46,028 nt of DNA from a virus. Under the pieces are notes generated by a model that saw only the letters and a program-made list of their open reading frames with translations, did not search any database and was not told the origin of the DNA. Below are positions 16,576 to 44,300 of this stretch, in pieces; the first letter of the stretch is position 1, and each line of letters begins with the position of its first letter. The position numbers and the translations under genes were made by a program. The stretch lies in the IMG/VR virus record IMGVR_UViG_3300029448_000082, positions 1 to 46,028 of that record; one strand, 5' to 3'.

Positions 16576-16784
16576 TAACATCTACCTCCGTCTAATATTA
16601 TATCATATTCATCTTTATTTCCCATAGTCTCTTCCACTATCCTCTCTTTAAAGTCAAAGTAGCTTATAACTTCCTCAGAACAATCGCAGTCCTGTACATA
16701 AACTTCTTCAATGCCACAATATCCACAAACCATCATATCGTCTGTATCTATCATAACTACATTCCCTTCACTATGCTCTATCAT
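16575..16784 (-). CDS. Small cysteine-containing acidic protein
   Basis: The frame could begin further upstream, but the ATG at 16784 has a full AGGAGG six bases ahead and overlaps the end of the previous gene by 14 bases, so I choose it (69 aa). CGYC and CDC in the middle could bind zinc. The rest is acidic. Function unknown. Confidence 0.55.
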   Translation of the reverse strand: MIEHSEGNVVMIDTDDMMVCGYCGIEEVYVQDCDCSEEVISYFDFKERIVEETMGNKDEYDIILDGGRC

Positions 16785-17064
16785 TTGCTTCCTCCTTAAC
16801 TTCCTCTGCGAAATAGTAATCCTCATCACTTAAGTCGCACTCATAATCTCCGTCTAACCATACTAACATCTGAGACTTTAAGTCATCATATATTTCATCA
16901 TATATCGCGTCTATGTCATAGTTATCATTAAACTCCTCTATTCCTAATGTCATTGCGTCCTCATATGTATTTGCGTCTACATTTAATGTAGCTTCAAAAT
17001 AACTATTTAACTCCGACGTATCGTATTCAATAGGTATACTAACTCTTATTTTATATTTTTTCAC
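16771..17064 (-). CDS. Acidic hypothetical protein (97 aa)
   Basis: It starts on GTG with GGAG six bases upstream. The protein opens with a beta strand (KYKIRVSIPIEYD) and is very acidic (YDEIYDDLKSQM, DLSDEDYYFAEEV). Small acidic early phage proteins often bind host enzymes or act as DNA mimics, but nothing here proves that. It follows a putative terminator at 17102-17131. Confidence 0.5.
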   Translation of the reverse strand: MKKYKIRVSIPIEYDTSELNSYFEATLNVDANTYEDAMTLGIEEFNDNYDIDAIYDEIYDDLKSQMLVWLDGDYECDLSDEDYYFAEEVKEEANDRA

Positions 17065-17164: not shown

Positions 17165-18901
17165 TTATAGAGAACTATAACCTACTGGATTGAGAACAAA
17201 GCCGTCAATATCAGACGGCATTTTGTCTTTTGAGATGTATGCAAGATTAGAACTTCCATACTGATTGTCCTTAACTACATCATCATCAATAGTCGGAAAC
17301 ATAGAACTCATAATACCTGCTAATTTAAAAGACATATTATCTTTGTCAAAATCTACAAAGAAGTCTGAATTGTTAAAGCAGTCTATTACGTGTCTTGTTG
17401 GAGTGTTTGGATTATCCATAATCTCTACTAGACGTTCTCTATAGAACTCCTGTGTAAGGATTGGTATTTCAAACGTATCAAACAGACTATCAATAGTCAT
17501 AGTAGCCTTTGTATACTTATTTTGCCTAACAAATCTAAGCATTGGCTCTATCAAATACACTTTGTCGCTTTTAATACCTAATAAGTCTGATAGATACTTA
17601 CTATCTTTTTTGTATTGACTTATATTTGTATATGCTCCGTCGTGTATATGAATCCTATCACTAATGTCTAATAGTTTGTCTTTTTCGTATTTTATTACGT
17701 TTTTAGTAAGTAGAGACTTAAATAGAGACGTATCATACAAGTCGTGTATATTACGTTCTCGCATTTCGTCTGCTAACTGAGTACCTAAGTCGTAACACTT
17801 ATCTACTACTTGACTCCAGAATATACTCCAATGTAGCATTTTATCTGCATTTAAAGTTCCCGAATGATATCTAAGCTCTACACCTTGATTAGCTTGAAAG
17901 TGACTATGTAAGTTCAGTCCGTGATATCTCTTTTCGTTGTACTTATTATTACTAAAGCCACAATCGTCGTAATAGTATTCTAAGAAACTATCTCTGTCGC
18001 AGATATATCGTAATTCATCAAACGACTGAGATACTGGTTTACACCAATTACTAGTTCTACGACTAGATGGCAACCAACTATATATATGTGGTTCTATCAT
18101 CTTAGTCATAATTACTAGCATTAAGAAGTGTTGCCAGTCATAGTCTCTTGTGTCTATATGTAAGTGATATCCACATTTCCTACTAATGTAAGCGTCTACT
18201 GATTTTTTAAGAGTATCTGTAATAGTAAGCATATCTTTATACAAAACGTCTCCACGTCTTGGGCTTACTACAACTTCTCCTCCATAGCTATCATCTCCAC
18301 CATTGACACTTCCGTCGTAAACTACGTTAAACATAGTGTGTCCATTGCCTCTACCACTTGCTAACTTTCTGGATATTTGGTCATAGACGAAACTATTAGT
18401 CCAGTCTCCTGCGTAATTAGTCTCTATCTCTATACCTTGATAACGTTTAGATTTAATTAGACTAAAAGTATCACTACTATATCCACACTTCTCAGGAGTA
18501 GCAAAGTCCGTATTTTCTTTTATGAAGTTATTACTATAGACGTTCCACTCGTAATTTGCATTACTATGATTAGAGAGGTAACAATCTTCACAATAATACT
18601 CTCCGTCGGATTCGCTATATTGCATATCGTCGTTCCAATAGTCTTCACTACATTCCTCACAATATGTTATATTGTCGTGGTAACAATCCTCACAATACGC
18701 TTCGTCTCCACCTGGAGTGTACAATACACTCTCGTTATGTAACTCGCAACCACAACAATCTGCTGAAAGGTAGTTCTCGTCGTAACACTCTTGACACATC
18801 TCATTGCCCAAATCGTCTGTAACAACATCATCTGATGTCATACGTTCAGAACAATTATGGCAAGGAGCGACAAACTCTTGTGTTTCGTCTTGACTAGGCA
18901 T
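17165..18901 (-). CDS. Amidoligase (COOH-NH2 ligase type) with N-terminal zinc knuckles
   Basis: The 578-aa protein starts with about 95 residues containing at least six Cys pairs (CHNC, CQEC, CCGC, CEDC, CEEC, CEDC; residues 14-107), several zinc-binding modules in a row. The next part carries the amidoligase pattern: GIEIET (156-161), DGS (196-198), GGEVVVSP (207-214), CGYHLHID (243-250) and LRYHSGTL (343-350), as in the glutamate-cysteine-ligase/glutamine-synthetase-like fold. Such enzymes use ATP to form amide bonds to carboxylates. It overlaps the glutamine amidotransferase gene by eight bases, so that enzyme probably supplies ammonia or a partner step. Substrate unknown; candidates are peptides, a protein side chain, or cell wall. 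Its tail region (about 350-578) has no clear motif. Confidence 0.82.
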   Translation of the reverse strand: MPSQDETQEFVAPCHNCSERMTSDDVVTDDLGNEMCQECYDENYLSADCCGCELHNESVLYTPGGDEAYCEDCYHDNITYCEECSEDYWNDDMQYSESDGEYYCEDCYLSNHSNANYEWNVYSNNFIKENTDFATPEKCGYSSDTFSLIKSKRYQGIEIETNYAGDWTNSFVYDQISRKLASGRGNGHTMFNVVYDGSVNGGDDSYGGEVVVSPRRGDVLYKDMLTITDTLKKSVDAYISRKCGYHLHIDTRDYDWQHFLMLVIMTKMIEPHIYSWLPSSRRTSNWCKPVSQSFDELRYICDRDSFLEYYYDDCGFSNNKYNEKRYHGLNLHSHFQANQGVELRYHSGTLNADKMLHWSIFWSQVVDKCYDLGTQLADEMRERNIHDLYDTSLFKSLLTKNVIKYEKDKLLDISDRIHIHDGAYTNISQYKKDSKYLSDLLGIKSDKVYLIEPMLRFVRQNKYTKATMTIDSLFDTFEIPILTQEFYRERLVEIMDNPNTPTRHVIDCFNNSDFFVDFDKDNMSFKLAGIMSSMFPTIDDDVVKDNQYGSSNLAYISKDKMPSDIDGFVLNPVGYSSL

Positions 18902-19949
18902 ATTTCAACTCGGTTTCATCAAAATCATACATCATTTCTGCGACTTGATACTCGTTCATAAGCTCATTAGTCTCAACGTTCATATAATACCATTGATGTT
19001 CAGTTGAGTCGTAAAACCACTCGCTAGGACGTGTGCCTACATAAATTCTGCATAGTTCCTGCTTGTTCATAGACTGCCAGTCTCTGCTAACTAATCCATC
19101 TTTATCATACTCCGGTATTTCGTCGCTCACATAATCATAGTCTGTAAACTCGTAGTCGTAGTATGCACTACCTAAACTACTAGAATAACTATTGATATTG
19201 TGTTGATATACTCTAGACTCATAGTTAAAAGTAGTCTTAACTACATTTGACATAGTATCTCCAAACACAGCAACATTATAACTATACAATGTATTCTTGT
19301 TTAACTTTACTACGTCTACACCAATAATACCTTCTTTACGTAATGCGTCTACAATAAAATCGCTTTCTGACGCATAATATAGTGTCTTCAACTGAGGCAC
19401 ATACGCGACTGAAAGAGGCCTATTAGACTCTCTACATAAATGTAATATCATTGGGTTATTTTTTACATAGCTTAACGCAAAGTCACTATCAAAATCGGCG
19501 ACTGCGTCCTGTATGTTATTAGTAGCGTCAATTGACTTGAATATCAACTGACTATCTACTGGGCATTGTTTATCTAACTGGGTTTGCATTTCTGCTATAT
19601 TATAGACGCAACCATTATGGGCACCTATAACACCACCGACTTGAAATGGGTGTGCATTGTTCTTAACAATAGCACCTTCCGTCGCAAATCTAGTGTGTCC
19701 TAGTAATATATTACTGCCATTGTCTAACGACTTTACGGCACTATTATATTCTTTGCTGTCTACAAACTTACCAGACGGCAAAAGGGACTTATATATATTA
19801 GACTGCTCTCCGATACTTGCAATACCAGACGAATGACTACCACGCGTCTGACTATCTATTGCAATATGCCTTAATACCTTCTTAGCAATCTTAGACTGCC
19901 TCTTAGTATAAGGTTTCGGAGATTTAGCTATTCCATATATTCCACACAT
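18894..19949 (-). CDS. Class II glutamine amidotransferase
   Basis: The 351-aa protein has Cys2 as N-terminal nucleophile (MCGIYGIA), RGSHSSG (36-42), GHTRFATEG (84-92) and AHNGCVYN (110-117), the fingerprint of the Ntn-type glutaminase domain of GlmS/AsnB. It should hydrolyse glutamine and release ammonia. No synthetase or isomerase domain follows; the C-terminal third is acidic and Tyr-rich. With the overlapping amidoligase downstream it forms a two-gene unit. AGGAG is seven bases before the ATG, and a structured RNA at 19986-20054 lies in its leader. Confidence 0.88.
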   Translation of the reverse strand: MCGIYGIAKSPKPYTKRQSKIAKKVLRHIAIDSQTRGSHSSGIASIGEQSNIYKSLLPSGKFVDSKEYNSAVKSLDNGSNILLGHTRFATEGAIVKNNAHPFQVGGVIGAHNGCVYNIAEMQTQLDKQCPVDSQLIFKSIDATNNIQDAVADFDSDFALSYVKNNPMILHLCRESNRPLSVAYVPQLKTLYYASESDFIVDALRKEGIIGVDVVKLNKNTLYSYNVAVFGDTMSNVVKTTFNYESRVYQHNINSYSSSLGSAYYDYEFTDYDYVSDEIPEYDKDGLVSRDWQSMNKQELCRIYVGTRPSEWFYDSTEHQWYYMNVETNELMNEYQVAEMMYDFDETELKYA

Positions 19950-19985
19950 AGTCTATACTCCTTGTTTTGGGTTAATAAAAATCTT

Positions 19986-20054
19986 GCGACTACACTTATT
20001 ACTAGCCGACACGGAAAGGATTACGTGCCTTGAACAAGGGCTAGTGGTAGTCGC
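19986..20054 (-). ncRNA. Structured leader RNA (three-way-junction-like) upstream of the glutamine amidotransferase
   Basis: GCGACTAC (19986-19993) pairs with GTAGTCGC (20047-20054), and ACTAGCC (20001-20007) pairs with GGCTAGT (20039-20045), with an asymmetric internal loop (7 versus 1 base) between the two stems. Inside are two small hairpins: CACG (20010-20013) with CGTG (20024-20027), and CTT/AAG around 20029-20038. All main pairs are Watson-Crick. It lies in the 119-base gap between two leftward genes, 37 bases upstream of the amidotransferase ATG. It could be a riboswitch, ribozyme or processing element; I recognise no known class. Confidence 0.6.
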
Positions 20055-20068
20055 TATATATAAATTAA

Positions 20069-20344
20069 TTATACTATGTCCTTAGTTATATCATAGTTTT
20101 TTAGTCTTACGTCTTCTAATGCGTCCATAACACTAGACATATCATTATGCATTGCGACTATTTCAGTCTGTATTACTCCACTCTCTACATAGAATTGCTG
20201 GACTTCCGACTGCAACTGAACTAATTGACGTTGTATACTGCCTATCATTTGCAGGTTATTTCTATGCGTCTTTATTCTATCGTCTATATTATAGACTATT
20301 CCTGTTTCTTTACTTACTTCTTTATCATTACAACTCTTACACAT
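20069..20344 (-). CDS. Hypothetical coiled-coil protein (91 aa)
   Basis: A CKSC at the N terminus is followed by a long helical heptad-like region (residues about 30-80, IQRQLVQLQSEVQQFY and so on), so it is probably an oligomer. It starts on the base shared with the previous stop. It lies upstream of the structured RNA. Function unknown. Confidence 0.55.
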   Translation of the reverse strand: MCKSCNDKEVSKETGIVYNIDDRIKTHRNNLQMIGSIQRQLVQLQSEVQQFYVESGVIQTEIVAMHNDMSSVMDALEDVRLKNYDITKDIV

Positions 20345-20872: not shown

Positions 20873-20939
20873 GTGTTTTCTTAAATAAATCACATCACGC
20901 TCCGTCTAAAGTCCAGAGTTCCGTCGGCGCCAATTCTGC

Positions 20940-20951
20940 ACAATCTAGCTC
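20940..20951 (+). repeat. 12-bp control element, copy 1
   Basis: ACAATCTAGCTC followed by TTATAAAA. The same 12 bases occur at 21865, 21902 and 22467, only in non-coding DNA of the control region, each followed by an A/T-rich stretch. Here it lies between the divergent promoters of the leftward accessory genes and the rightward small genes. Confidence 0.75.
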
Positions 20952-21016
20952 TTATAAAAGTAACAATTACCCGTCTAAAACTATTTTCAAATATATAAAG
21001 AAATCATTAGGATTAG

Positions 21017-21046
21017 CCGACATTCATAGCTATATTCTTATATGAT
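21017..21046 (+). promoter_or_regulatory. Possible rightward promoter
   Basis: CCGACA (21017-21022), 18 bp, then TATGAT (21041-21046). The predicted transcript would start about 22 bases before the GAGG ribosome-binding site of the gene at 21075. The -35 is only a partial match. Confidence 0.4.
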
Positions 21047-21074
21047 ATTAATTAACTTAATGAGGTTTAACAAA

Positions 21075-21275
21075 ATGAGTACAGAAGCAAAATTACAAGC
21101 TTATAATGATATGCTAAGAGAGGAAAAAGCTCAACAGAGACAGAGTCAAAGAGTCAGAGCAGAATTCAACAGAGACGCAATCAATCAAGCAGAACTTTAC
21201 AGATTTATTTTTGGTAATGAATTTGTAAATACTAATAGTGAAATAATAAAATACAACAATGAAAGGTTGGTATAA
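21075..21275 (+). CDS. Small charged helical protein (66 aa)
   Basis: The frame could start at 21042, but the ATG at 21075 has GAGG nine bases before it, and the earlier ATG overlaps the predicted promoter. The product is highly charged and Gln/Arg-rich in a long helix (EEKAQQRQSQRVRAEFN). It forms a two-gene rightward unit with the next gene, ended by a terminator at 21664. Function unknown. Confidence 0.6.
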   Translation: MSTEAKLQAYNDMLREEKAQQRQSQRVRAEFNRDAINQAELYRFIFGNEFVNTNSEIIKYNNERLV

Positions 21276-21277
21276 CA

Positions 21278-21646
21278 ATGAGTAAAGAAGCAAATAAAAC
21301 ACAGGTATTAGAACGTAGTCAAATGAACCGAGTTAAGTCGGAACAAAGAGACGAGATGTTATCATCTTTTGAGACTATTGCAAACGGAAATAAGGCACTA
21401 TATAATAGTATGGTAAAGTCTTATGACGCTAATCACCTAGTAGTCGGAACTAGAATAGACAATTGGCTTGTCATTAAAGAAAGTAGTCAAGAAGCTAGTC
21501 GTTTAGTAGATACTATTAATCAGAACTTTGCTAGTCTTAATTCTTTAATTGAGAAGACAGGTATTAAACTATCAAAGAAAGGTTCAGACGTCAAAGGAAC
21601 TCCAAAAGCAACACATAAAGTTGAGATTGTTATTCCTAAAAGCTAG
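21278..21646 (+). CDS. Hypothetical 122-aa protein, second of a rightward pair
   Basis: Charged and helical at the N terminus, with a strand-turn-strand part (LVVGTRIDNWLVIKES) and a Lys-rich C-terminal tail (KKGSDVKGTPKATHKVEIVI). It starts two bases after the previous stop with AAAGG upstream. The C-terminal basic tail suggests nucleic acid contact, which is only a guess. Confidence 0.6.
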   Translation: MSKEANKTQVLERSQMNRVKSEQRDEMLSSFETIANGNKALYNSMVKSYDANHLVVGTRIDNWLVIKESSQEASRLVDTINQNFASLNSLIEKTGIKLSKKGSDVKGTPKATHKVEIVIPKS

Positions 21647-21663
21647 TCTAAACTAGACAAATT

Positions 21664-21697
21664 AAGTCGGCTAATTTATTTTAGTCGGCTTTTTTTG
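21664..21697 (+). terminator. Rho-independent terminator of the rightward pair
   Basis: An 11-bp stem (AAGTCGGCTAA at 21664-21674 with TTAGTCGGCTT at 21681-21691, two G-U pairs) around the loop TTTATT is followed directly by a T run. It lies 18 bases after the stop of the gene at 21646. Confidence 0.8.
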
Positions 21698-21800
21698 TGT
21701 CCTTCAAATTTAAAAAGCTAGGAATATTGAAATAGTTTTAGTAAATTAAGTCGGATAGTCTATTCAAAAATCTCAGTCGGAAAAATAAATAAAAAAAGAC

Positions 21801-21829
21801 TTGACTTTTAGTCGCAAACACCTTACCTT
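21801..21829 (+). promoter_or_regulatory. Possible rightward promoter with no gene downstream
   Basis: TTGACT (21801-21806), 17 bp, TACCTT (21824-21829). No rightward gene follows until 23517; the DNA after it carries two copies of the 12-bp element and then leftward genes. TTACCTTA at 21823-21830 is mirrored by TAAGGTAA at 21930-21937, so a short RNA of about 110 bases is possible. Confidence 0.35.
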
Positions 21830-21864
21830 AGAGGGCGGTTGCGGGTGGGAATGCACAATTTTGG

Positions 21865-21876
21865 ACAATCTAGCTC
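21865..21876 (+). repeat. 12-bp control element, copy 2
   Basis: ACAATCTAGCTC, preceded by ACAATTTTGG and followed by TAATAAAA. The preceding ten bases are identical in copy 4, so these two copies share 22 bases. It lies 37 bases before copy 3, downstream (leftward sense) of a minus-strand terminator. Confidence 0.8.
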
Positions 21877-21901
21877 TAATAAAATATATTAGAACTTTTA
21901 G

Positions 21902-21913
21902 ACAATCTAGCTC
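21902..21913 (+). repeat. 12-bp control element, copy 3
   Basis: ACAATCTAGCTC, preceded by ACTTTTAG and followed by TCTTAAAA. It sits just past the minus-strand terminator at 21936-21968. Confidence 0.8.
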
Positions 21914-21935
21914 TCTTAAAATACTCTTTTAAGGT

Positions 21936-21968
21936 AAAAAAGAAAAGCCCCAAGATTTCTCTCAGGGC
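21936..21968 (-). terminator. Rho-independent terminator of the leftward small genes
   Basis: On the minus strand an 8-bp stem (GCCCTGAG with CTTGGGGC, two G-U pairs that exist only in minus-strand RNA) around a 6-base loop is followed by TTTTCTTTTTT. It lies eight bases after the stop of the 49-aa gene. Confidence 0.85.
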
Positions 21969-21975
21969 CATTCTA

Positions 21976-22125
21976 TTACACAAGGTCTTTAAAGCAAGCA
22001 GTTTTAAATTTCTCTGCATCGAACCTTGGGTTCTCGTGACTAAACACTACACAAAGCGCATCAACAAAGTATTTTGTAGTCTTGTTAATTACACCTGCTA
22101 GTGTTTCAAAGTGTTTTTTAGTCAT
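21976..22125 (-). CDS. Small phage protein (49 aa), MTKKHFE type
   Basis: The ATG at 22125 has AAAGGA seven bases ahead. The protein runs MTKKHFETLAGVINKT, then NPRFDAEKFKTACF. The block with NPRFD and a following Phe/Lys-rich helix recalls small hypothetical proteins seen in many phages. No function is known to me. It ends just before a strong terminator and follows a UNCG hairpin, so it may be translated from a processed message. Confidence 0.75.
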   Translation of the reverse strand: MTKKHFETLAGVINKTTKYFVDALCVVFSHENPRFDAEKFKTACFKDLV

Positions 22126-22147
22126 TGTTATTCCTTTCGTAAGTTGT

Positions 22148-22165
22148 GGGGCTCCGGAGAGCCCC
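22148..22165 (-). other. GC-rich UNCG-tetraloop hairpin between small genes
   Basis: On the minus strand GGGGCTC pairs with GAGCCCC around TCCG, a C(UNCG)G loop of the extra-stable type. There is no T run after it, so it is more likely an RNA-stability or attenuation element than a terminator. It lies between the 62-aa and 49-aa genes. Confidence 0.7.
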
Positions 22166-22174
22166 GGGTTATTA

Positions 22175-22363
22175 TTAGCAACTGGTGCAATCTGATATTA
22201 CTTCTGTAATTATCTTTGCGTTGCCTTCTACGTCTCTACGTAGTAACTTCGTTTCCTTCTCTAGTTCTAGTATTCTGTCATATTGCCTAAATAATACATA
22301 CATAAGCAATCCTACGAATATAAAAACTAGTAATGCGATAAGTTCTAGTTCTAAGGTTGTCAT
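22175..22363 (-). CDS. Small membrane protein with coiled coil (62 aa)
   Basis: The ATG at 22363 follows AGGAGGTG. Residues about 6-23 (LIALLVFIFVGLLMYVLF) form one transmembrane helix, followed by a charged coiled-coil helix (YDRILELEKETKLLRRDVEG) and a terminal CTSC. It resembles a small inner-membrane protein such as a spanin-, holin- or exclusion-type factor. It has the same layout as the 75-aa neighbour at 22769. Confidence 0.65.
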   Translation of the reverse strand: MTTLELELIALLVFIFVGLLMYVLFRQYDRILELEKETKLLRRDVEGNAKIITEVISDCTSC

Positions 22364-22466
22364 TTTATTCACCTCCTTTCTGATAGTTCTTGTTGTCATA
22401 CCTTATATTACATATAATAAATTTAAGATGCAAGTATTAAATAAAATAACATTTGAACAATTTTGG

Positions 22467-22478
22467 ACAATCTAGCTC
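22467..22478 (+). repeat. 12-bp control element, copy 4
   Basis: ACAATCTAGCTC, preceded by ACAATTTTGG and followed by GCTTAAAT. It lies between the minus-strand terminator at 22498-22533 and the 62-aa gene, about 104 bases upstream of that gene in the leftward sense. Confidence 0.8.
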
Positions 22479-22497
22479 GCTTAAATAATTTTTTTTT

Positions 22498-23516: not shown

Positions 23517-23687
23517 ATGAGTAAAGAAGAAGATAGAATCAAAGAAATGGAACGTATTATAGAGGAAAGCTTTAATATAATGTCAGATGAGGCAATGTAT
23601 GATGAATTTTTTAAAGAAGAGATAGAAATTTTGAAAAAGCCTAAAGATAATACAATTAGGGAGAAAAAAAAGAATGATAAAGAATAA
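23517..23687 (+). CDS. Small charged helical protein (56 aa)
   Basis: It runs MSKEEDRIKEMERIIEESFN and ends in a very basic tail (REKKKNDKE). First gene of the long rightward run. No ribosome-binding site precedes the ATG. It overlaps the zinc peptidase gene by 14 bases. Function unknown. Confidence 0.55.
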   Translation: MSKEEDRIKEMERIIEESFNIMSDEAMYDEFFKEEIEILKKPKDNTIREKKKNDKE

Positions 23688-23994
23688 AAAATCGCGCGAT
23701 ACGAGAATTGCTATAGGCGGCCACGAATACGAAGTAATATTCACCGGTTTAAGGCACGAAGACAGTACCAAAGAATTATATGGTAGACACGAAGTAAAAG
23801 ACAATATTATATATATTAATGAAAATATACACCCGTCTAGACAAAAAGAAACATTAATACACGAAATACTGCACGCATTGCATTTTAATTACGGATTACA
23901 GCACAGTGAAGGATATATTGATGCATTGTCTAATGGATTGTTTCAATTAGGTATGGGAGACTATTTATGGAAGAAAATACAAAAAAAATCCTAA
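23674..23994 (+). CDS. Zincin-like metallopeptidase (HExxH)
   Basis: The 106-aa protein carries HEILH at residues 63-67 inside LIHEILHALHFNYG, with an acidic residue downstream (HSEGYIDALSNG) in the position of the third ligand. This is the minimal layout of small gluzincin-type (ImmA/IrrE-related) phage peptidases. It may cleave a host or phage regulator. No helix-turn-helix domain is attached. AGGGAG lies ten bases ahead of the ATG. Confidence 0.75.
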   Translation: MIKNKKSRDTRIAIGGHEYEVIFTGLRHEDSTKELYGRHEVKDNIIYINENIHPSRQKETLIHEILHALHFNYGLQHSEGYIDALSNGLFQLGMGDYLWKKIQKKS

Positions 23995-24125
23995 AAGCTA
24001 AAAAGAATAAGGATTACAAGCTAGTTCAACAATTACAACAAGAACTAGATACGTTGAGAAAACTAGAAGATAGACCTGATAAGGAGGACTTTCCAAAAAA
24101 TGAAAGAAAAAACAACAAAAGCTAA
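23967..24125 (+). CDS. Small charged protein (52 aa), overlapping gene
   Basis: The ATG at 23967 has GGGAG eight bases ahead. The product is a charged, Lys/Gln/Glu-rich helix (DYKLVQQLQQELDTLRKLED) with a basic tail, coiled-coil-like. It overlaps the peptidase gene by 28 bases and the Nmad1-like gene by 26. Function unknown. Confidence 0.5.
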   Translation: MEENTKKILKAKKNKDYKLVQQLQQELDTLRKLEDRPDKEDFPKNERKNNKS

Positions 24126-24459
24126 TAATGCGATAAGTTACATTAAACATAACTATCCGCGTACAGAACAAGAGTTTCAAATACTATTAAACAATATGTA
24201 TACAACATTCTGTAAAAAACAATTTGATTATGGCCCAGGCAACATTGCTATGGGTACTTCTTTAAAAAACAAAGAAGAAGTCAATATAGCGTTACTAGGT
24301 ATTATAGTAAGGCTTAACGATAAGATAAACCGACTTATTAACCTATCAACCAAACATAACTTCGAAGCAAAAAACGAACCAATCGAAGATGCGTTTTTAG
24401 ATATTGCTATATATTCAGTAATGGCGTTAATAGTCAAAAACAACAAATGGGGTAAATAA
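24100..24459 (+). CDS. Nucleotide modification associated domain 1 (DUF1599-like) protein
   Basis: The 119-aa protein matches the pattern of this domain: FCKKQFDYGPGNIAMG, then a helical IVRLNDKINRLINL, then EDAFLDIAIYSVMALIVKN. The family is linked by genomic context to phage enzymes for nucleotide or DNA modification; its biochemical role is not settled to my knowledge. AGGAGG lies ten bases before the ATG. Confidence 0.7.
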   Translation: MKEKTTKANNAISYIKHNYPRTEQEFQILLNNMYTTFCKKQFDYGPGNIAMGTSLKNKEEVNIALLGIIVRLNDKINRLINLSTKHNFEAKNEPIEDAFLDIAIYSVMALIVKNNKWGK

Positions 24460-26332: not shown

Positions 26333-26495
26333 ATGTCATATATGTTATCACGCATTAATTAAAACTGGTGTATATATGTGGGATTCTACTGAAAAAGATT
26401 GTAGTGGACTTAAATGCTTTAATTGTCTTACTATTTACTCTCCTTCTTTTGAAATAAAAGAAATGGGAATACCTACAGTTGTTGGGTACTCTTGA
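26268..26495 (+). CDS. Small zinc-binding protein (75 aa)
   Basis: Cysteines in CHICYH and LKCFNC form a four-Cys zinc ribbon (residues about 23-51), with a basic N terminus (KLKKIVKKHRC). It overlaps the small terminase by 65 bases, with AAGGAG seven bases before its ATG. Lying between the terminase genes, it may be an HNH-like remnant, but no HNH is visible. Confidence 0.6.
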   Translation: MQFKNPNTKNWLKLKKIVKKHRCHICYHALIKTGVYMWDSTEKDCSGLKCFNCLTIYSPSFEIKEMGIPTVVGYS

Positions 26496-26890
26496 TGAGG
26501 TTGGCAGTATACGGAACTCTTAGAAGAGATTATCCTACAAAAGGTAAGGTTGAAGGGTTTAGTTTAGTTTTTCCAGGAACACAATCTTTTCCAGCATTAA
26601 TAAAGAATGAAAAAGGAAAAGGTGCTATTGTAGAACTAATAGAAGTAACTCAAGAAGATTTAAATATGTACGATGAGTATGAAGGAGTAGAAAGTGGTTT
26701 GTATATTAGAACTACTGCTCCCGTAGTTTTAAAAGGCGGTAAAAAAGAAAAAGCCTGGATATATGTTGCAGGTCCTCAATTGTGGCAAAACTCTAATTCT
26801 TTTACAGAAGTTCCAGATGGAGACTGGCATTCGTTTAAAACGTTAACAATGTTAGATAGGGTTTATGAAAAAGACTACGAACAAGCCTGA
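26495..26890 (+). CDS. Gamma-glutamyl cyclotransferase-like protein (GGCT/AIG2 fold)
   Basis: The start is the ATG at 26495, overlapping the previous TGA. The 131-aa protein opens with LAVYGTLRRD (3-12), the substrate-loop motif of the family. It has YDEYEGVESGLYIR (59-72), where Glu63 is in the place of the catalytic acid, and AWIYVAG near the end. Such enzymes release 5-oxoproline from gamma-glutamyl compounds. It lies between the terminase genes, which is unusual, and could act with the amidoligase and glutamine amidotransferase of the same phage. It overlaps the large terminase gene by 26 bases. Confidence 0.85.
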   Translation: MRLAVYGTLRRDYPTKGKVEGFSLVFPGTQSFPALIKNEKGKGAIVELIEVTQEDLNMYDEYEGVESGLYIRTTAPVVLKGGKKEKAWIYVAGPQLWQNSNSFTEVPDGDWHSFKTLTMLDRVYEKDYEQA

Positions 26891-34112: not shown

Positions 34113-36910
34113 TGGCAACATTTCAAACACAAATAGAAGATTTAACAGGTTCTATTGGAGATACAACAGCTATAACTAGTTGGCTACAAGATGGAGCTAA
34201 ACAAATTATTAGTTTTATACCTCAAGCAAGACTTGAAGATGTTGCTAGTAATTCTAATTTTACAGACAGTAAAGATATAGAGGGTATAAAAGTTTTATCT
34301 GTATTGAGAAAAGATGCTAGTAATAGTAATTACTATATGCCTTGTAGAAAATTACCACCAAGTAAAATGGGAATGGTACACGATTCTTCTAATATGGAAT
34401 TTGCAACATCTAGCGACCCAGCTTATATAGTTCACAACGACTTGTTAAATACTTTTCCTCAAAGCGCAGCTTCAAATGACAGTCGTGTTGTGTTTATTAA
34501 TTTAGATTTTTCTGCATTAACTTATGATGATAGTACAATAGCTAACTTCCCAGATGAAGCAGAACCTGGAGTAGTTTTGTATGCAGCAAGAAACGGCGTT
34601 GAAAGATTAATGAATGATATAAACCTTTCTGTTTCTGACTTATCTATATCTACTACTTTGCCAGTAGCACCAACATTAAGCACTGTAACTTATAGCGATG
34701 CAACAAATGCTGATGCAAGCGCTTCATCTATTTCAGCTATTACAGTAGCAAGTGTTAGTGACATTGACCCAACAGGTTCAGTTCCTACATACACAAAACC
34801 AACAGTAAGTTTAAGCTCTGTTGCTATATCAGATTTAAATATTTCTGCTAGTGCACCCTCATTGGGAACTATTTCAACTGTAACTTATGCAGACGCTATT
34901 AATCAAGGTTCTTTTGCAGAAGATATGTCTACAGTAACATTCGGCACTGTTCCTGCTAAAATAGACGTTAGTCAAGATGTTCCTTCGTATACAAAACCTA
35001 CATTAAACTTAAGTAGCGTAGCTATATCAGATTTAAGTGTAAGTGCAAGCGCTCCTAGTATTCCAAGTATAGCAAGCGTTACATACACGAGTGCAACTAA
35101 TCAATCAGGATTTGCTGAAGATATGTCGTCTGTAACATTTGGAAGTGTTCCTGATACAATAGATGTTTCTAGTGTAGTTCCTTCATATACAAAACCTACT
35201 ATTAATTTAAGCAGTGTGGCTATATCAGATTTGAGCATAAGTGCAAGTGCGCCTAGTGCATTAAATATTGAAGCAGCTTCTGTAAGTTTTAGTGCAAGCA
35301 CTCCTAATTTTGTTCCTCCAACATTATCTGTTGACACAACTCAGTTTGAAACATTTTTAGAAACAGATGAAGATGCAGAATTAGCTCAATTACAATTAGG
35401 TAGATTAAATAATGAGGTACAACAATACCAGGCTAATATACAAAAAGAAGTTGCTAGTTTTAATAGAGATGTTCAAGTTTATCAAGCTGAATTACAAAAG
35501 TCAATTAAAAATGCAGAACTAACATCTGCTTCTGAAGCACAACAAATGCAAGAGTATAGTAATGACATACAGTTATATGCACAAAATGTTAATAAGGAAG
35601 TACAACAATATCAACAAAACACGCAAAAAGAATTAACCCTATATCAAGCTAGAACAGGTGTAGAATTACAAGAATTTTCTCAAAATATACAGAATGAATT
35701 AAATGAGTTTAATAAAGAAAACTCAATATATCAAATAGAGTTTCAAGAAGCTTCTATAAAATTTGCTGCTGACCAACAAAAAGTTGTTGAACAAGCTAGG
35801 ATTGATTTGGCAAAAGCCCAACAAGACGCACAGAATGCTACCAATGTTGACATTGCTAATAAAGCAGCAGACCAGGAGCTTAACCTTCAAAATGCTGTAA
35901 ATGATATGCAAAAAATTGTTAATGATAATAGCAGTCTTTTGGCAAAGTTTCAACAAGAATTAGGATTGTATCAACAAAATGTAAATAAAGAGATAGCTGA
36001 ATATCAGCAGAATACACAAAAAGAATTAACATTATACCAAGCAAGAACTGGTGTAGAACTTCAACAATATCAAACAGACATACAAAATGAATTAAATGAA
36101 TTCAATAAAGAAAACACAAGATATCAAGCAAACGTTCAAGGACAAATACAAAAACACAATACCGATTTACAAAAATTATCTGAGCAAGCAAGAATTGATT
36201 TAGCGAAAGCACAACAAGATGCTCAAAATGCTACTAATGTAGATATAGCAAACAAAGCAAAAGACCAAGAGTTATCTTTACAAAATGCTATAAACAATAT
36301 GCAAGAAATAATTAATAACAACAATAGTGTATTATCTAAGTTCCAACAAGAGTTAGGTCTATATGCACAGAACGTAGCAAAAGAAGTTCAAGAGTATCAA
36401 CAAAATACTCAGAAAGAAATAACATTGTATCAGTCAAGAACAAATGTAGAGTTACAACAATACGGTCAAGATATACAAAACGAACTCAATGAGTTTAATA
36501 AAGACAATGTAAGGTATCAGGCAGAGATGCAAGACCAGATTGCTAAACATAATACTGCTTTACAAAGAGCTATTACGCAAGCACAGTTAGATGCAGCAGA
36601 TGCTCAACAAGAAGCGCAACAAGCTACTCAAGTTTCTATAGCAAATAAAGCAGCAGACCAAGCTTTAGCATTACAAAACTCAGCACAAAATATGGCAGCT
36701 AAAATACAAGATAACAATGCTTTAATGGCAAAGTATGGAGTAGAATTGCAATCATACGCCTCTAACGTTAATAAAGAAGTTCAAGAGTATGCAAATAACT
36801 TACAAAAAGATACAGCTAAATATACTTGGTATCAACAGCAATATCAAATGATTGATGCACAATATAAAGAATTTTTACAGTCCTTACAAGGACAATTAAA
36901 TAAACAATAA
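34112..36910 (+). CDS. Long repeat-containing virion protein (adaptor-like N terminus, beta repeats, coiled coil)
   Basis: The 932-aa protein has three parts. Residues 1-185 are a mixed alpha/beta domain (ITSWLQDGAKQIISFIPQAR, PDEAEPGVVLYAARNGVERL) like the head-tail adaptor proteins at this position. Residues about 190-395 are three similar blocks (YTKPTxxLSSVAISDL). Residues about 420-930 are Gln/Asn-rich coiled coil with three copies of a 131-residue unit and a partial fourth (EVQQYQQNTQKELTLYQ, each start at about residues 497, 627, 758, 889). It may be a head-tail joining or fibre-like protein. Confidence 0.6.
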   Translation: MATFQTQIEDLTGSIGDTTAITSWLQDGAKQIISFIPQARLEDVASNSNFTDSKDIEGIKVLSVLRKDASNSNYYMPCRKLPPSKMGMVHDSSNMEFATSSDPAYIVHNDLLNTFPQSAASNDSRVVFINLDFSALTYDDSTIANFPDEAEPGVVLYAARNGVERLMNDINLSVSDLSISTTLPVAPTLSTVTYSDATNADASASSISAITVASVSDIDPTGSVPTYTKPTVSLSSVAISDLNISASAPSLGTISTVTYADAINQGSFAEDMSTVTFGTVPAKIDVSQDVPSYTKPTLNLSSVAISDLSVSASAPSIPSIASVTYTSATNQSGFAEDMSSVTFGSVPDTIDVSSVVPSYTKPTINLSSVAISDLSISASAPSALNIEAASVSFSASTPNFVPPTLSVDTTQFETFLETDEDAELAQLQLGRLNNEVQQYQANIQKEVASFNRDVQVYQAELQKSIKNAELTSASEAQQMQEYSNDIQLYAQNVNKEVQQYQQNTQKELTLYQARTGVELQEFSQNIQNELNEFNKENSIYQIEFQEASIKFAADQQKVVEQARIDLAKAQQDAQNATNVDIANKAADQELNLQNAVNDMQKIVNDNSSLLAKFQQELGLYQQNVNKEIAEYQQNTQKELTLYQARTGVELQQYQTDIQNELNEFNKENTRYQANVQGQIQKHNTDLQKLSEQARIDLAKAQQDAQNATNVDIANKAKDQELSLQNAINNMQEIINNNNSVLSKFQQELGLYAQNVAKEVQEYQQNTQKEITLYQSRTNVELQQYGQDIQNELNEFNKDNVRYQAEMQDQIAKHNTALQRAITQAQLDAADAQQEAQQATQVSIANKAADQALALQNSAQNMAAKIQDNNALMAKYGVELQSYASNVNKEVQEYANNLQKDTAKYTWYQQQYQMIDAQYKEFLQSLQGQLNKQ
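35599..36860 (+). repeat. Tandem 131-residue (about 393-bp) coiled-coil repeats in a structural gene
   Basis: Three full copies begin near 35599, 35991 and 36383, with a partial fourth near 36777. The repeats start at the block EVQEYQQNTQKE and include LYQARTGVELQ, QNELNEFNKEN, ARIDLAKAQQDAQNATNVDI and FQQELGLYAQNV. Nucleotide similarity is high, which suggests recent duplication or gene conversion. Confidence 0.8.
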
Positions 36911-38391: not shown

Positions 38392-41300
38392 ATGGCGACA
38401 TTAACAGGACAAAGAATAAAAGATAGCTATAAAGATTTATTACAAGTATCAAATAGTAACAGTGGAATAGACTCAACATTAAGGACAATATCAGATGGAG
38501 AAGCTACAGATAGTGTATTACAACTTAGCAGTGTTGCTGTTAATATATCCTCAGCAGGCGCGTTACAGTATGCTGGCGTTGCTATTACTTCTACAGCTGC
38601 TGAACTAAATATATTAGACGGAGCTACAATTACAGTAGCAGAACTTAACATACTAGACGGAGTTACTTCTACAGCAGCAGAATTAAATATTCTAGATGGA
38701 GTAACATCAACTGCAGCCGAGCTAAATGTATTAGACGGATATACTGGCAGCGTAACAGAATTAAACTATTTAGACACTTTACACGCTACAGGCGTAACTG
38801 CTACAGAGTTTGATTATCTAGACGGAGTTACTTCTAGTATACAAACACAGTTAGATTCTAAGATAAGTGCTACACTAACACAAGAACAAGTAGAAGATTT
38901 TGTTGGAGGTATGTTAGACGGTACAGAGACAGGTATTTCTGTTAGTTATGACGATACAAATGGTAACATAGATTTTGTTGTTACGAGTCAAACTGATGAA
39001 AACTTTACAACCGCAGACCATAGTAAGCTAGATGGTATAGAAGCTTCAGCTACAGCCGACCAAACTGCTTCAGAAATAAAAACTTTAGTTGGAAATGCAA
39101 GTGACTCTAATGTATTTACAGATGCAGACCATTCTAAATTAGATGGAATAGAAGCTAGCGCAGATGTAACAGATGCAACTAACGTAACTGCAGCTGGCGC
39201 TTTAATGGATTCTGAAGTTACTAATCTTTCTCTTGTAAAAGGTTTAACATCAGGTATATCTAATGGTAATGTTTTAGTTGCTAATTCATCAGTTGCTGAT
39301 AATGATTTTTTAAAAATTGATGGAACATCTGTAGAAGGTAGAACTGCAGCCGAGATAAGAAGCGATTTAAATGTAGAAGATGGAGCTACAGCAGACCAAA
39401 CAAACGCAGAGATTAGAACTGCCGTAGATGCAGCCTCAGATTCTAATGTATTTACAGATGATGACCATAGCAAGTTAAATGCTATTGAAGCAAGTGCTGA
39501 TGTAACAGACACTGCAAATGTAACAAGTGCAGGTGCATTGATGGATAGCGAACTTACAAGTATTGCAGATGTAAAAGCTTTAGACCAGTCAGTAGTAAGT
39601 GGAGCAACACCTACATTTACAACTACTAATTTTACTGATGCTTCTAATAAAAGATTTATGACTGATGCTCAAGAAACTAAACTTGACTCAGTTGAGAGTA
39701 ATGCAACGGCAGACCAAACTGCTGAAGAAATACAAGACATAGTTGGAGCTATGTTTACAACAACTAATACCGAAACTGGTATTACAGCAACATATCAAGA
39801 CTCTACAGGAGATATAGATTTAGTTGTACAAACACTTAATCAAGATACAACTGGTAATGCAGCTACTGCAACTAAGATTGCATCTATTACTAATAGTGAT
39901 ATTGTACAACTAACAGACACACAAACTTTATCAAACAAAACCATAGCAAGTCCTACTTTTACTGGAGATGTAACCTTTAACGATGCTTCAACTCCACAAT
40001 TAAAAATTAAAGACACTACAAACAATGTATTGTTGGATTTAAGAACTACTGACACTTTGGCTGCAATAGGAACAACTACGGATAGTCCTTTACATTTAAA
40101 ACAAAATGGTGCATTTCACTTATCTATTAATTCAACTCAAATTATTCTTAATGCATCTGGAGAAGATAGAGATACTATTATAAAAGATGATAGTGGTACA
40201 TCAGTATTTAAAGTAAATGCTGCAAATTCAGATGTAGATATAACAACCTTAGATGTATCTGGAGATGCAGACATTGACGGAACATTGGAAGCAGATGCTA
40301 TTACGGTTGGAGGAACTGCTTTAAACACAGTTATTGCAGGAGTTACAGTAGCAAATGCAACATTAGCTGCAACTACAACAGTATCAAATAGCACAGCAAA
40401 CACAAACTTTCCAGTTGTATTTCACGATGAATCAAATGCTTTATTAGATGACACAGGTGCATTAAGATATAATCCAAGTACAGGAACATTGTTAGTTCCT
40501 AATCTTTCTGTTGCTGGTACAACAACAACTGTAGATACAGTTACTATGCAAGCAGCAAATGCTATTATATTTGAAGGAGCAACTGCAGACGCACACGAAA
40601 CAACATTATCTATTGTAGACCCAACAGCAGACCACACACAATACTTAATTAATCAAGGTGGGTATATTCCAGTATTAGCAGCAGCTACAACAACTGCTAT
40701 TACTTCTACTCCTGCTGAACTTAATGTATTAGATGGAATTACTTCTACAACAGCAGAGCTTAATATCCTTGATGGAGTAACTGCTACTACTGCCGAACTA
40801 AACATAATGGACGGAGTAACAGCTACCACAGCAGAATTAAATGTTCTTGACGGATATACAGGAAGTGTTACAGAATTAAATTACTTAGATACTTTACACG
40901 CCACAGGCGTAACATCAACTGAATTTGATTACCTTGATGGCGTTACTTCTAACATACAAACACAATTAGATGCTAAAATTGAAGCTACATTAACTACTGA
41001 ACAAGTGCAAGATATTGCAGGTCCATTAGTAGCATCAGGTGGTACAAAAACTGGAATTACTGTAACCTACGATGACACTAATAATAATATGGACTTTGTA
41101 GTTGGTACTCTAAACCAAGATACCACAGGTAATGCTGCTACAGCCACAGCTCTTGAAACAGCTAGAACAATACACGGTGTATCTTTTGATGGTACTGCTA
41201 ATATAGATTTATCTGAAGTAGTACAAGATACAGCTGGAGGAATGTTTAGTAGTAACACTGAAACATTTATTACAGCCACTTATCAAGATGCTGATGGGAC

Positions 41301-44300
41301 AGTAGACTTAGTTGTTCCTGTTAAAGATGAAGATAATTTCTCAAGTGATTCAGCTTCACATCTAGCAACTCAACAATCTATTAAAGCTTATGTAGACGGA
41401 GAAATTACATCAGCTGGTGCTGGCGATATTACAGCAGTTACTGCTGGTTCAGGATTAACTGGCGGTGCTACTACGGGTGCAGCAACTTTAAACATTGGAG
41501 CAGGTACTGGTATTGATGTAGCAACAGATGCTATATCAGTAGATGTATCTGACTTTATGAGTAACGGTAGCAACAATAGAGTATTAACTGCTACTGGTAC
41601 AGATGCTATGAACGCAGAATCAACTCTTACTTGGAACGGTAGTGACTATTTAACTGTTCAATCAGCAGATGATTCTGAGGGTGGTATAAGACTTGAAAAA
41701 TCTACAACTGACGGCTCACACACAAAATGGAGCATATCTCATAGAGACGATAACCAAAGTTTAATTATTTATTCTTACGACGGAACTACATTTAGAAACT
41801 GGATAACATTAGATGAGCCAAATGCTTTATTAAAATTAGGTAGTAATACTTCTAACCTAGTTACTATAAATAGCTCTGCACAGATTGCAGCAGCATCTTT
41901 AGATATATCAGGAGATGTAGATGTAGACGGCACACTTGAAACTGACGCTTTAACTATCAATGGAGTAACCTTAGCAGAAACAATTAGCGATACAGTAGGG
42001 GCAATGGTAGGAAGTAATACTGAAAGTGGTATTACTGTAGCTTACCAAGACGCAGACAATACTTTAGATTTTACTGTTGGTACTTTAAATCAAGACACTA
42101 CTGGAAACGCAGCTACTGCAACTGCATTAGCAACAGCTAGAAATATCCACGGTGTTTCTTTTGACGGAACAGGAAACATAGACTTATCTGAGGTGATTCA
42201 AGATACAGTAGGAGCTATGTTCTCTTCTAATACAGAAACTAGAATTACTGCTACCTATCAAGACGGAGACGGTACAATAGATTTAGTTGTTGATGATTTA
42301 GATACTGATACACAATTAACAACAGAAAATGTTCAAGACATTGTTGGTGCTATGTTTGGTAGTAATACCGAGACAAGAATATCAGCTACATACCAAGACG
42401 GCGACGGAACTATTGACTTAGTTGTTGATGATATGACTGCTAATGATAACACCACTTATACTGGTGGAACAAATTTAACTTTATCTGGGACAACTTTTAA
42501 TGTAGATGATGCTTTCTTAAAAAATAATGCTGATGACACAACAAGTGGTACTATAACTGCTGGTGGTTTTACTACATCTGGTAATATTGATGTAGACGGT
42601 ACTGCAAATTTAGATAACACAGATATAGACGGAACTCTTAATGTTTCTGGTGTTTTTGATGTAGATGATATACACGGAAGAACTAATGATACAAATAGAT
42701 TATCATTTGATGACGATACTCAATCAGGAATAGCAAATGGTGTATCGCTAACTGGGATAAATCATCTTTATTTATGTTGTGATGAATCAAACAATGGAAC
42801 TGGAGCTGTTAAATTTTTTAAAGGAACTGACAACGATTTAGATAGTGGAACACGAGTTGAATTAGCACAATTTGACAATAGTGGTAATTTAAGTTTTAGA
42901 GAGGATAGCACTACTCAAACAAGATATATTCATATGCCAAGAGGTGGTGGTATTACTTTTTATGGAGATAAAAGTGTACATCACGGAATCTTTTCAAGAG
43001 ATGACGGCAATTCGGCTGCAGATGACTTATTAATTTCATCTTATGGTGCAGTTTATATTGATTTAGATTCAAATGATAACAATACAAGTGGTGCAAGTTT
43101 TGAAATAGGAAGACACAATGCTGCTAATAGTCCTTTCTTTGTAGTAGACGGAGAAGACGGAGAAGTAACTCTTGCAAGTTTTGTTCTTGACGGTAATACT
43201 ATTTCTGGTATTGATGATTCAGGCGAATTTACTAATGATGATAATCACATTATGACTTCTGCTGGAGTAGAGGATAAAATTTTAGGTTATGGTTATACAA
43301 CTAACACTGGAGACATAACAGGAGTTACTGCTGGAACAGGACTTTCAGGTGGAGGCACTAGTAGTGGTGTTACACTTAATTTAGATGTAGGAGATTTAGG
43401 ACTTGTAGGAAATGGAAGTTTAGATAGTGCTACTAATACTGAAGCAGAATATGCAGCATTGCCAGTTGGTTATGCTAAAATGATGCACTCTAATTTAGGT
43501 ACTGATGAGGGTATGCCATTAGATAGTCAATATTTCTACTTTAAGAAAATTGCAAATAGAGATTCAGGTGGTGGTTGGGGAGCTATAGCTCTTGGATACA
43601 ATAACAATGAACAATTTTATATAGGTAATACTACTGTAAGTAGTGCTTTTGCTACCTGGAGTAGAGTAGTAGTAGAAGATTCTAATGGTATAGCTACATC
43701 TCCAGTTCAAAAAATTACAAGTGGAGATGATTTTGCATTAGGAGAATTAACAAACAATCTCCGTATGAAAGGTAATAGTACTACTGGATTTAATTTTTTA
43801 AACAGCGGCAATGGTTGGGCACATTTAAATTGTGGTAATGTAGTAGCAGCAGGTTCAGTATCAATAGGTGGACACGCAATGGCTGATATTGACATTGGCT
43901 CAGAATTTACAGATACTGATGACCACTTAATGTCTTCTGGAGCAATTAAAGAAAAGATTGAAGACTATGGATATACAACTAATACGGGAGATATTACAGC
44001 AGTTACTGTAACTGCAGGAACTGGTTTGACAGGTGGTGGTGCTGCTAGTAGTGGAGCTTATAGTGAAACATTAAATGTAATTGGTGGAGATGGTATTACC
44101 GCCAATGCAAATGATGTTGCAATTACAGCTGCACAAACAACTATTACATCTGTTAAAAATGCTTCTCTTGTAGTTGGTAGAGATAGTCACAATGGTATAC
44201 ATTTCTCTACAGACAATGCAATTAAAGTAGAAGTTAACGATGTACAAGATGAGTTTAGATTTGCTTCTGGTGGTACTTTTCACGCAGACGCAGATATTAT

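Follow-up and report, generated by a model that had tools for sequence, protein, structure and literature searches.

A phage glutaminase–amidoligase gene pair with a conserved structured RNA leader, accompanied by a gamma-glutamylamine cyclotransferase gene

The stretch of viral DNA analyzed here, referred to as the window, comprises the 46,028 nt of IMG/VR record IMGVR_UViG_3300029448_000082. Its minus strand carries two overlapping genes, GAT and AMI, together with a structured RNA leader directly 5' of GAT, while the gene for a third enzyme, GGACT, lies on the plus strand. The features are listed below by position in the window.

20069–20344, minus strand: uncharacterized small gene immediately upstream of the leader, in a conserved gene run, with same-place homologues in L003–L008 and L010
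19985–20054, minus strand: structured RNA leader of GAT with a P1/P2 helix and a P3 hairpin, a divergent subtype without Px (from folding and covariation)
20013–20022, minus strand: invariant P3 loop AATCCTTTC (plus one stem base)
19958–19963, minus strand: GAT Shine-Dalgarno sequence AAGGAG, whose AAGGA could base-pair with UCCUU in the P3 loop
18894–19949, minus strand: GAT, class II glutamine amidotransferase (Ntn, Cys2 nucleophile), 351 aa
17165–18901, minus strand: AMI, GCS/YbdK-type amidoligase with N-terminal ribbons, 578 aa
18581–18862, minus strand: three four-Cys LIM-like zinc ribbons of AMI, aa 14–107 (from the Cys pattern, with LIM matches by profile and fold)
17807–18439, minus strand: amidoligase catalytic domain of AMI, aa 155–365, with GIEIE, DGS, GGEVVVSP, CGYHLH and LRYHSGT (from Pfam, motifs and homologue alignment)
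16771–17064, minus strand: uncharacterized small gene immediately following AMI, with homologues at the same position in L002–L008 and L010
26492–26890, plus strand: GGACT, gamma-glutamylamine cyclotransferase (AIG2-like, PF06094), immediately upstream of the gene for the terminase large subunit

In the ORF map of the window, the GAT and AMI reading frames share 8 bp (18894–18901, minus strand), and both the ORF coordinates and the eight-base overlap given by the first-pass annotation hold. A Pfam profile search with the product of the downstream gene (16771–17064) returned no match. GAT matched GATase_6 (PF13522) at E 8.1e-14, with 52.2 bits against a curated Pfam cut-off of 27, and the PHROGs assignment agrees. 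Its catalytic domain spans about aa 1–240 and is followed by a low-confidence acidic tail. The N-terminal Cys nucleophile C2 and the glutamine-binding residues R87, N112-G113 and D132 are all present, and M1, C2, H85, R87, T90, H111, N112, G113 and D132 are invariant across 76 homologues. In the AlphaFold model (mean pLDDT 72), Foldseek matched the glutaminase domains of GlmS and PurF, which fit best, and also EgtC. In ergothioneine synthesis, EgtA, a GCS-type ligase, works with EgtC, a hydrolase of the class II amidotransferase fold. GAT and AMI resemble this couple in joining a ligase to a GAT-fold hydrolase, but their substrates are expected to differ, and GAT reached only 18.4 bits with the NCBIfam EgtC equivalog model, far under its cut-off of 218.65. 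At the level of sequence, GAT is thus confirmed as a class II glutaminase domain with intact active-site residues.

AMI matched Amidoligase_2 (PF12224) at E 6.8e-21 (75.7 bits, curated Pfam cut-off 22), again in agreement with PHROGs. Residues E158, E160, D196, S198, E209, G244, H246, H248, R344 and H346 are invariant across 73 homologues, and the conserved Glu, His and Arg active-site positions of the GCS/GS-like fold are present. The AlphaFold model is of moderate confidence (mean pLDDT 66); Foldseek ranked YbdK first, followed by LIM domains and glutamine synthetase, the best match of the catalytic domain being to YbdK (PDB 1r8g) at E 5e-4 and 11% identity. YbdK is a carboxylate-amine ligase of the GCS2 type for which we know of no GAT partner; apart from the low identity, it differs from AMI in having no ribbons. 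Profile and residues together confirm AMI as an Amidoligase_2 protein with its predicted active site intact. Its N terminus contains six CxxC pairs, which form three four-Cys ribbons of the LIM/treble-clef-like kind. The "six or more zinc knuckles" proposed earlier were rejected here, as Cys spacing, profile and fold matches are all LIM-like. Ribbons similar to those of AMI were also seen in L013 (1–1368), with no Amidoligase_2 match in the same frame.

Linkage of the two genes was assessed in IMG/VR contigs retrieved by AMI alone. Almost all window-type contigs whose flanks are long enough have GAT next to AMI, the order is AMI before GAT in several more distant phages, and many of the most distant ribbon-amidoligase homologues have no GAT in their flanks. 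The pair was also found in one Armatimonadetes MAG (L213), and fusions of ribbons with an amidoligase occur in two Clostridia MAGs and are common in other phages. In a sister clade, the order is often second amidoligase, GAT, a short ORF and AMI, with the two additional genes placed as follows.

L150, 1610–3370: second, divergent amidoligase directly upstream of GAT; also in L151, L153, L154, L162, L169, L171, L173, L174 and L175
L150, 4584–4877: conserved protein of about 95–105 aa and unknown function between GAT and AMI; equivalents in L151–L178, L191, L011 and L012

The short ORF had no match in a Pfam search and is missing from the window and its clade. The first-pass annotation had named both enzyme families from motifs, all of which, including Cys2 of GAT, are found in the sequence; PF13522 and PF12224, both above cut-off, confirm the families, and GAT carries no synthetase domain, as had been noted. 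Of the checks proposed at that stage, the computational ones came out in its favor: structure prediction of each protein singly led from AMI to YbdK and from GAT to GlmS/PurF, the catalytic residues proved invariant, and the two genes co-occur as neighbors in related and distant phages in varied orders.

GGACT, which carries YGTLR and DEYEG motifs, matched PF06094 at E 2.7e-15 (57.4 bits, cut-off 22.8). Members of this family occur in 37 of the 39 pair-carrying records and in 0 of 19 unrelated phage records, a contrast that does not represent 37 independent events since many of the 39 records share an ancestor, while the 19 comparison records were chosen solely by chance DNA matches and several are short fragments. 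Amidoligase and cyclotransferase also occur together in sister-clade records and in unrelated phages (Geobacillus GR1, a Christensenellales phage, Waltz), and in the latter the two genes adjoin. In the window, GGACT lies in the late operon, 6.5 kb from the pair and on the opposite strand; given this placement and the common descent of the records, a functional tie between GGACT and the pair is only putative.

The 70-nt leader directly 5' of GAT has a folding z of -5.4, and its P3 loop, UCCUUUC, is invariant. In relatives, GAT leaders adopt a three-way junction composed of a P1/P2 helix of about 16 bp and the hairpins Px and P3, the Px loop usually reading UAGUCGR and the P3 loop NNUCCUUUC. Among 30 distinct sequences, compensatory changes occur at 20 of 25 pairs, and 89.6% of cells pair; the covariation score of 0.537, compared with 0.231 for shuffled alignments, was reached in none of 500 shuffles and was lost on sliding the partners, on an alignment made with a covariance model and fitted to the structure, which favors the score. 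Independent support for the structure comes from the detection of leaders outside the training set of this model, which was built from 15 sequences: L057, L071, L072, L084, L086, L093, L096, L097 and L099 were found at E 1e-9 to 1e-12. Run against 24 whole phage records, the model matched 18, 16 of them at E < 1e-9, at the GAT leader only; at most one leader per phage record was found, solely before GAT, and a search of the window for a second copy returned none. Antisense echoes at that position have much lower scores, and this gap, together with the sense-strand G-U pairs, shows that RNA rather than DNA is the constrained form. The general model covers the whole of the window leader with a weak score (16 bits, E 0.1). 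The three members of its subtype (window, L003 and L004) share one loop sequence, and even so few sequences include four doubly compensated pairs.

Rfam searches with the leaders of the window, L060 and L096 gave no match near gathering scores, even at permissive E, and identity with a known riboswitch was rejected on these grounds. Glutamine riboswitches (glnA RNA), which also occur in phage Melnitz (PMC9004378), are likewise structured phage RNAs tied to glutamine by name or gene context, but the window leader lacks an Rfam match and its conserved letters differ. When the RNA-loop pattern was sought in all viral contigs, matches away from GAT lacked a shared structure and look like chance. 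The GAT leaders of L104–L111, L088, L091–L095, L100 and L009 appear strongly structured by eye and have a different form, several of them keeping a CCUUU-type loop and a GGUCGR hairpin loop near the start site. The leader structure is well supported and undescribed in Rfam.

To judge what is new at this locus, we compared it with the phage peptidoglycan modification cassette, described in papers that cite Iyer et al. 2009. Phages assigned such a cassette include RIO-1, PSA-HP1, phiEco32, LUZ24/UFV-P2/tf and CW02 (PMC5498523, PMC3890496). Three reports describe phage cassettes with a PF14395 ligase, an ATP-grasp enzyme and a gamma-glutamyl cyclotransferase, some as hypothetical peptidoglycan modifiers (PMC5498523, PMC3890496, PMC10580990). 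The likeness lies in GAT-II, Amidoligase_2 and gamma-glutamyl cyclotransferase being encoded in one phage, with a hypothetical role in host-envelope modification, and in GAT-II and Amidoligase_2 being neighbors in the window as well. Differences are that AMI carries LIM-like ribbons, that the cyclotransferase gene of the window lies outside the GAT-AMI operon, that this operon has a structured RNA leader, and that the window group is without PF14395 COOH-NH2 ligase and RimK-type ATP-grasp. PF14395 matched in 0 of 39 pair-carrying records, the window included (positive control: 3 of 10 known phages), and the RimK-type model in 0 of 15 records of the pair-carrying group (positive control: 3 of 3 known phages). 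The OM43 phages MEP401 and MEP402 are similar in that GATase_6 and PF12224 are reported as auxiliary genes; going by the available part of that description alone, they differ in that ribbons, GGACT and an RNA leader are not mentioned (PMC10580990). Annotations of Alcaligenes, Arthrobacter, Zobellviridae and other phages also place GAT-II and Amidoligase_2 genes close together. The published cassettes bear out the earlier statement that both families and their neighborhood were already known, but not its ranking of the pair as the best candidate for an undescribed system: cassettes of GAT and amidoligase, with or without a cyclotransferase, are known in many phages. With PF14395 and the RimK-type ATP-grasp absent and the controls positive, what is new on the enzyme side, as judged from profile matches, is a reduced and distinct composition of GAT, ribbon-bearing amidoligase and GGACT. 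The undescribed part of the locus is the RNA leader of GAT, which the first-pass annotation did not mention. A defense-system reading of GAT and AMI was rejected, as PADLOC anti-phage defense profiles gave no match to either protein at E <= 1.

As our leading explanation, to which we assign slightly less than an even chance, the three enzymes would constitute a gamma-glutamyl/amide module that, during infection, remodels a host peptide or metabolite containing glutamate, with leader-gated translation of GAT and AMI. By family assignment, the combination of GCS-type ligase, GAT-II-fold hydrolase and gamma-glutamylamine cyclotransferase points to the formation and removal of gamma-glutamyl or amide bonds. 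AMI, as a GCS/YbdK-type ligase, would use ATP to activate a carboxylate that is then joined to an amine. The ribbons probably dock AMI on its target, which suggests that this target is a macromolecule. GAT, predicted to be translationally coupled to AMI, would hydrolyze glutamine or a gamma-glutamyl amide, thereby either supplying ammonia to AMI or removing a gamma-glutamyl group, as EgtC does; sequence cannot choose between these options because the same GAT residues would serve in both. GGACT, whose gene lies apart from the pair, would clear gamma-glutamyl-amines as 5-oxoproline. A somewhat doubtful alternative, in line with the first-pass annotation, is simple glutamine-dependent amidation, with MurT/GatD in the cell wall as an analogue, according to which GAT frees NH3, AMI and ATP convert a target carboxylate into a primary amide, and GGACT is unrelated. 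This would agree with the retention of all glutamine-binding and catalytic residues in GAT, with its best fit to GlmS/PurF and with the GAT/AMI gene overlap, which suggests equimolar expression; the GGACT association and the EgtC fold match, on the other hand, fit gamma-glutamyl chemistry as well or better. The presence of a GGACT gene at 26492–26890 favors gamma-glutamyl chemistry over simple amidation, and making and removing gamma-glutamyl groups appears at least as likely as formation of the novel amide proposed in the first-pass annotation. A cell-wall peptide as the target is a published guess for related cassettes (PMC5498523, PMC3890496).

Regarding control of the proposed gamma-glutamyl/amide module, the conserved UCCUUU loop of the leader can pair with the GAT Shine-Dalgarno sequence, which suggests that translation of GAT and AMI is probably gated. 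Pairing of 5–7 bp between UCCUU(U) and the Shine-Dalgarno sequence is possible in most leaders but amounts to 4 bp or less in L073, L076 and L085, and it does not covary; as almost any AGGAG would fit, we only infer that it forms. Many leaders would also allow the Px loop to pair with the start region (UAGUC/GACUA), but others such as L057, L076, L080 and L085 do not, and no such pairing is claimed here. Sharing with riboswitches in general the trait of a conserved, structured sense-strand leader RNA, the element may represent an undescribed, phage-specific class of cis-regulatory RNA that gates GAT-amidoligase translation, possibly a riboswitch responding to glutamine or to some gamma-glutamyl compound, a proposal that we hold with somewhat better than even confidence. 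We consider it unlikely that the leader is instead an RNA-processing or stability hairpin, such as an RNase III site: its position between same-strand genes, with no promoter- or terminator-like site found nearby, would suit such a role, but the invariant loop and branched architecture exceed a generic processing hairpin, and the single copy always before GAT and the loop complementarity to the Shine-Dalgarno sequence also speak against it. As for GAT and AMI, it is improbable that they produce a small secondary metabolite or a RiPP-like modified peptide from a precursor bound by the ribbons or by a small partner protein, since the conserved ORF of about 95 aa between GAT and AMI that invites this idea is confined to the sister clade, has no Pfam match and is conserved along its whole length, not in a leader only, for which reasons it was rejected as a peptide substrate.

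Amidoligase cassettes are widespread in phages, and the cited papers on them report no demonstrated substrate; with its minimal set of GAT, ribbon-bearing amidoligase and GGACT, the group reduces the chemistry to a question that can be put to three purified proteins. The operon-specific leader and its invariant loop suggest that something tied to amide or gamma-glutamyl chemistry is sensed by the phage, and the ligand of the leader, if found, could reveal a substrate or product of the module.

Elsewhere in the window, four copies of a repeat of about 39 nt around GACAATCTAGCTC (20927–22492, plus strand; three exact, one with one mismatch) sit in the gene-poor 20.8–23.6 kb region where the coding strand switches, and are possibly promoters or an origin. 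An IrrE-like metallopeptidase domain (PF06114, 4.4e-7) is encoded at 23674–23994 (plus strand), followed at 24100–24459 (plus strand) by a weak match, just under cut-off, to the nucleotide-modification-associated domain DUF1599 (PF07659). Long late ORFs contain degenerate direct repeats at 34780–36811 and 38580–44008, for example three 175-nt copies at 393-nt spacing, and resemble repetitive structural or fiber proteins.
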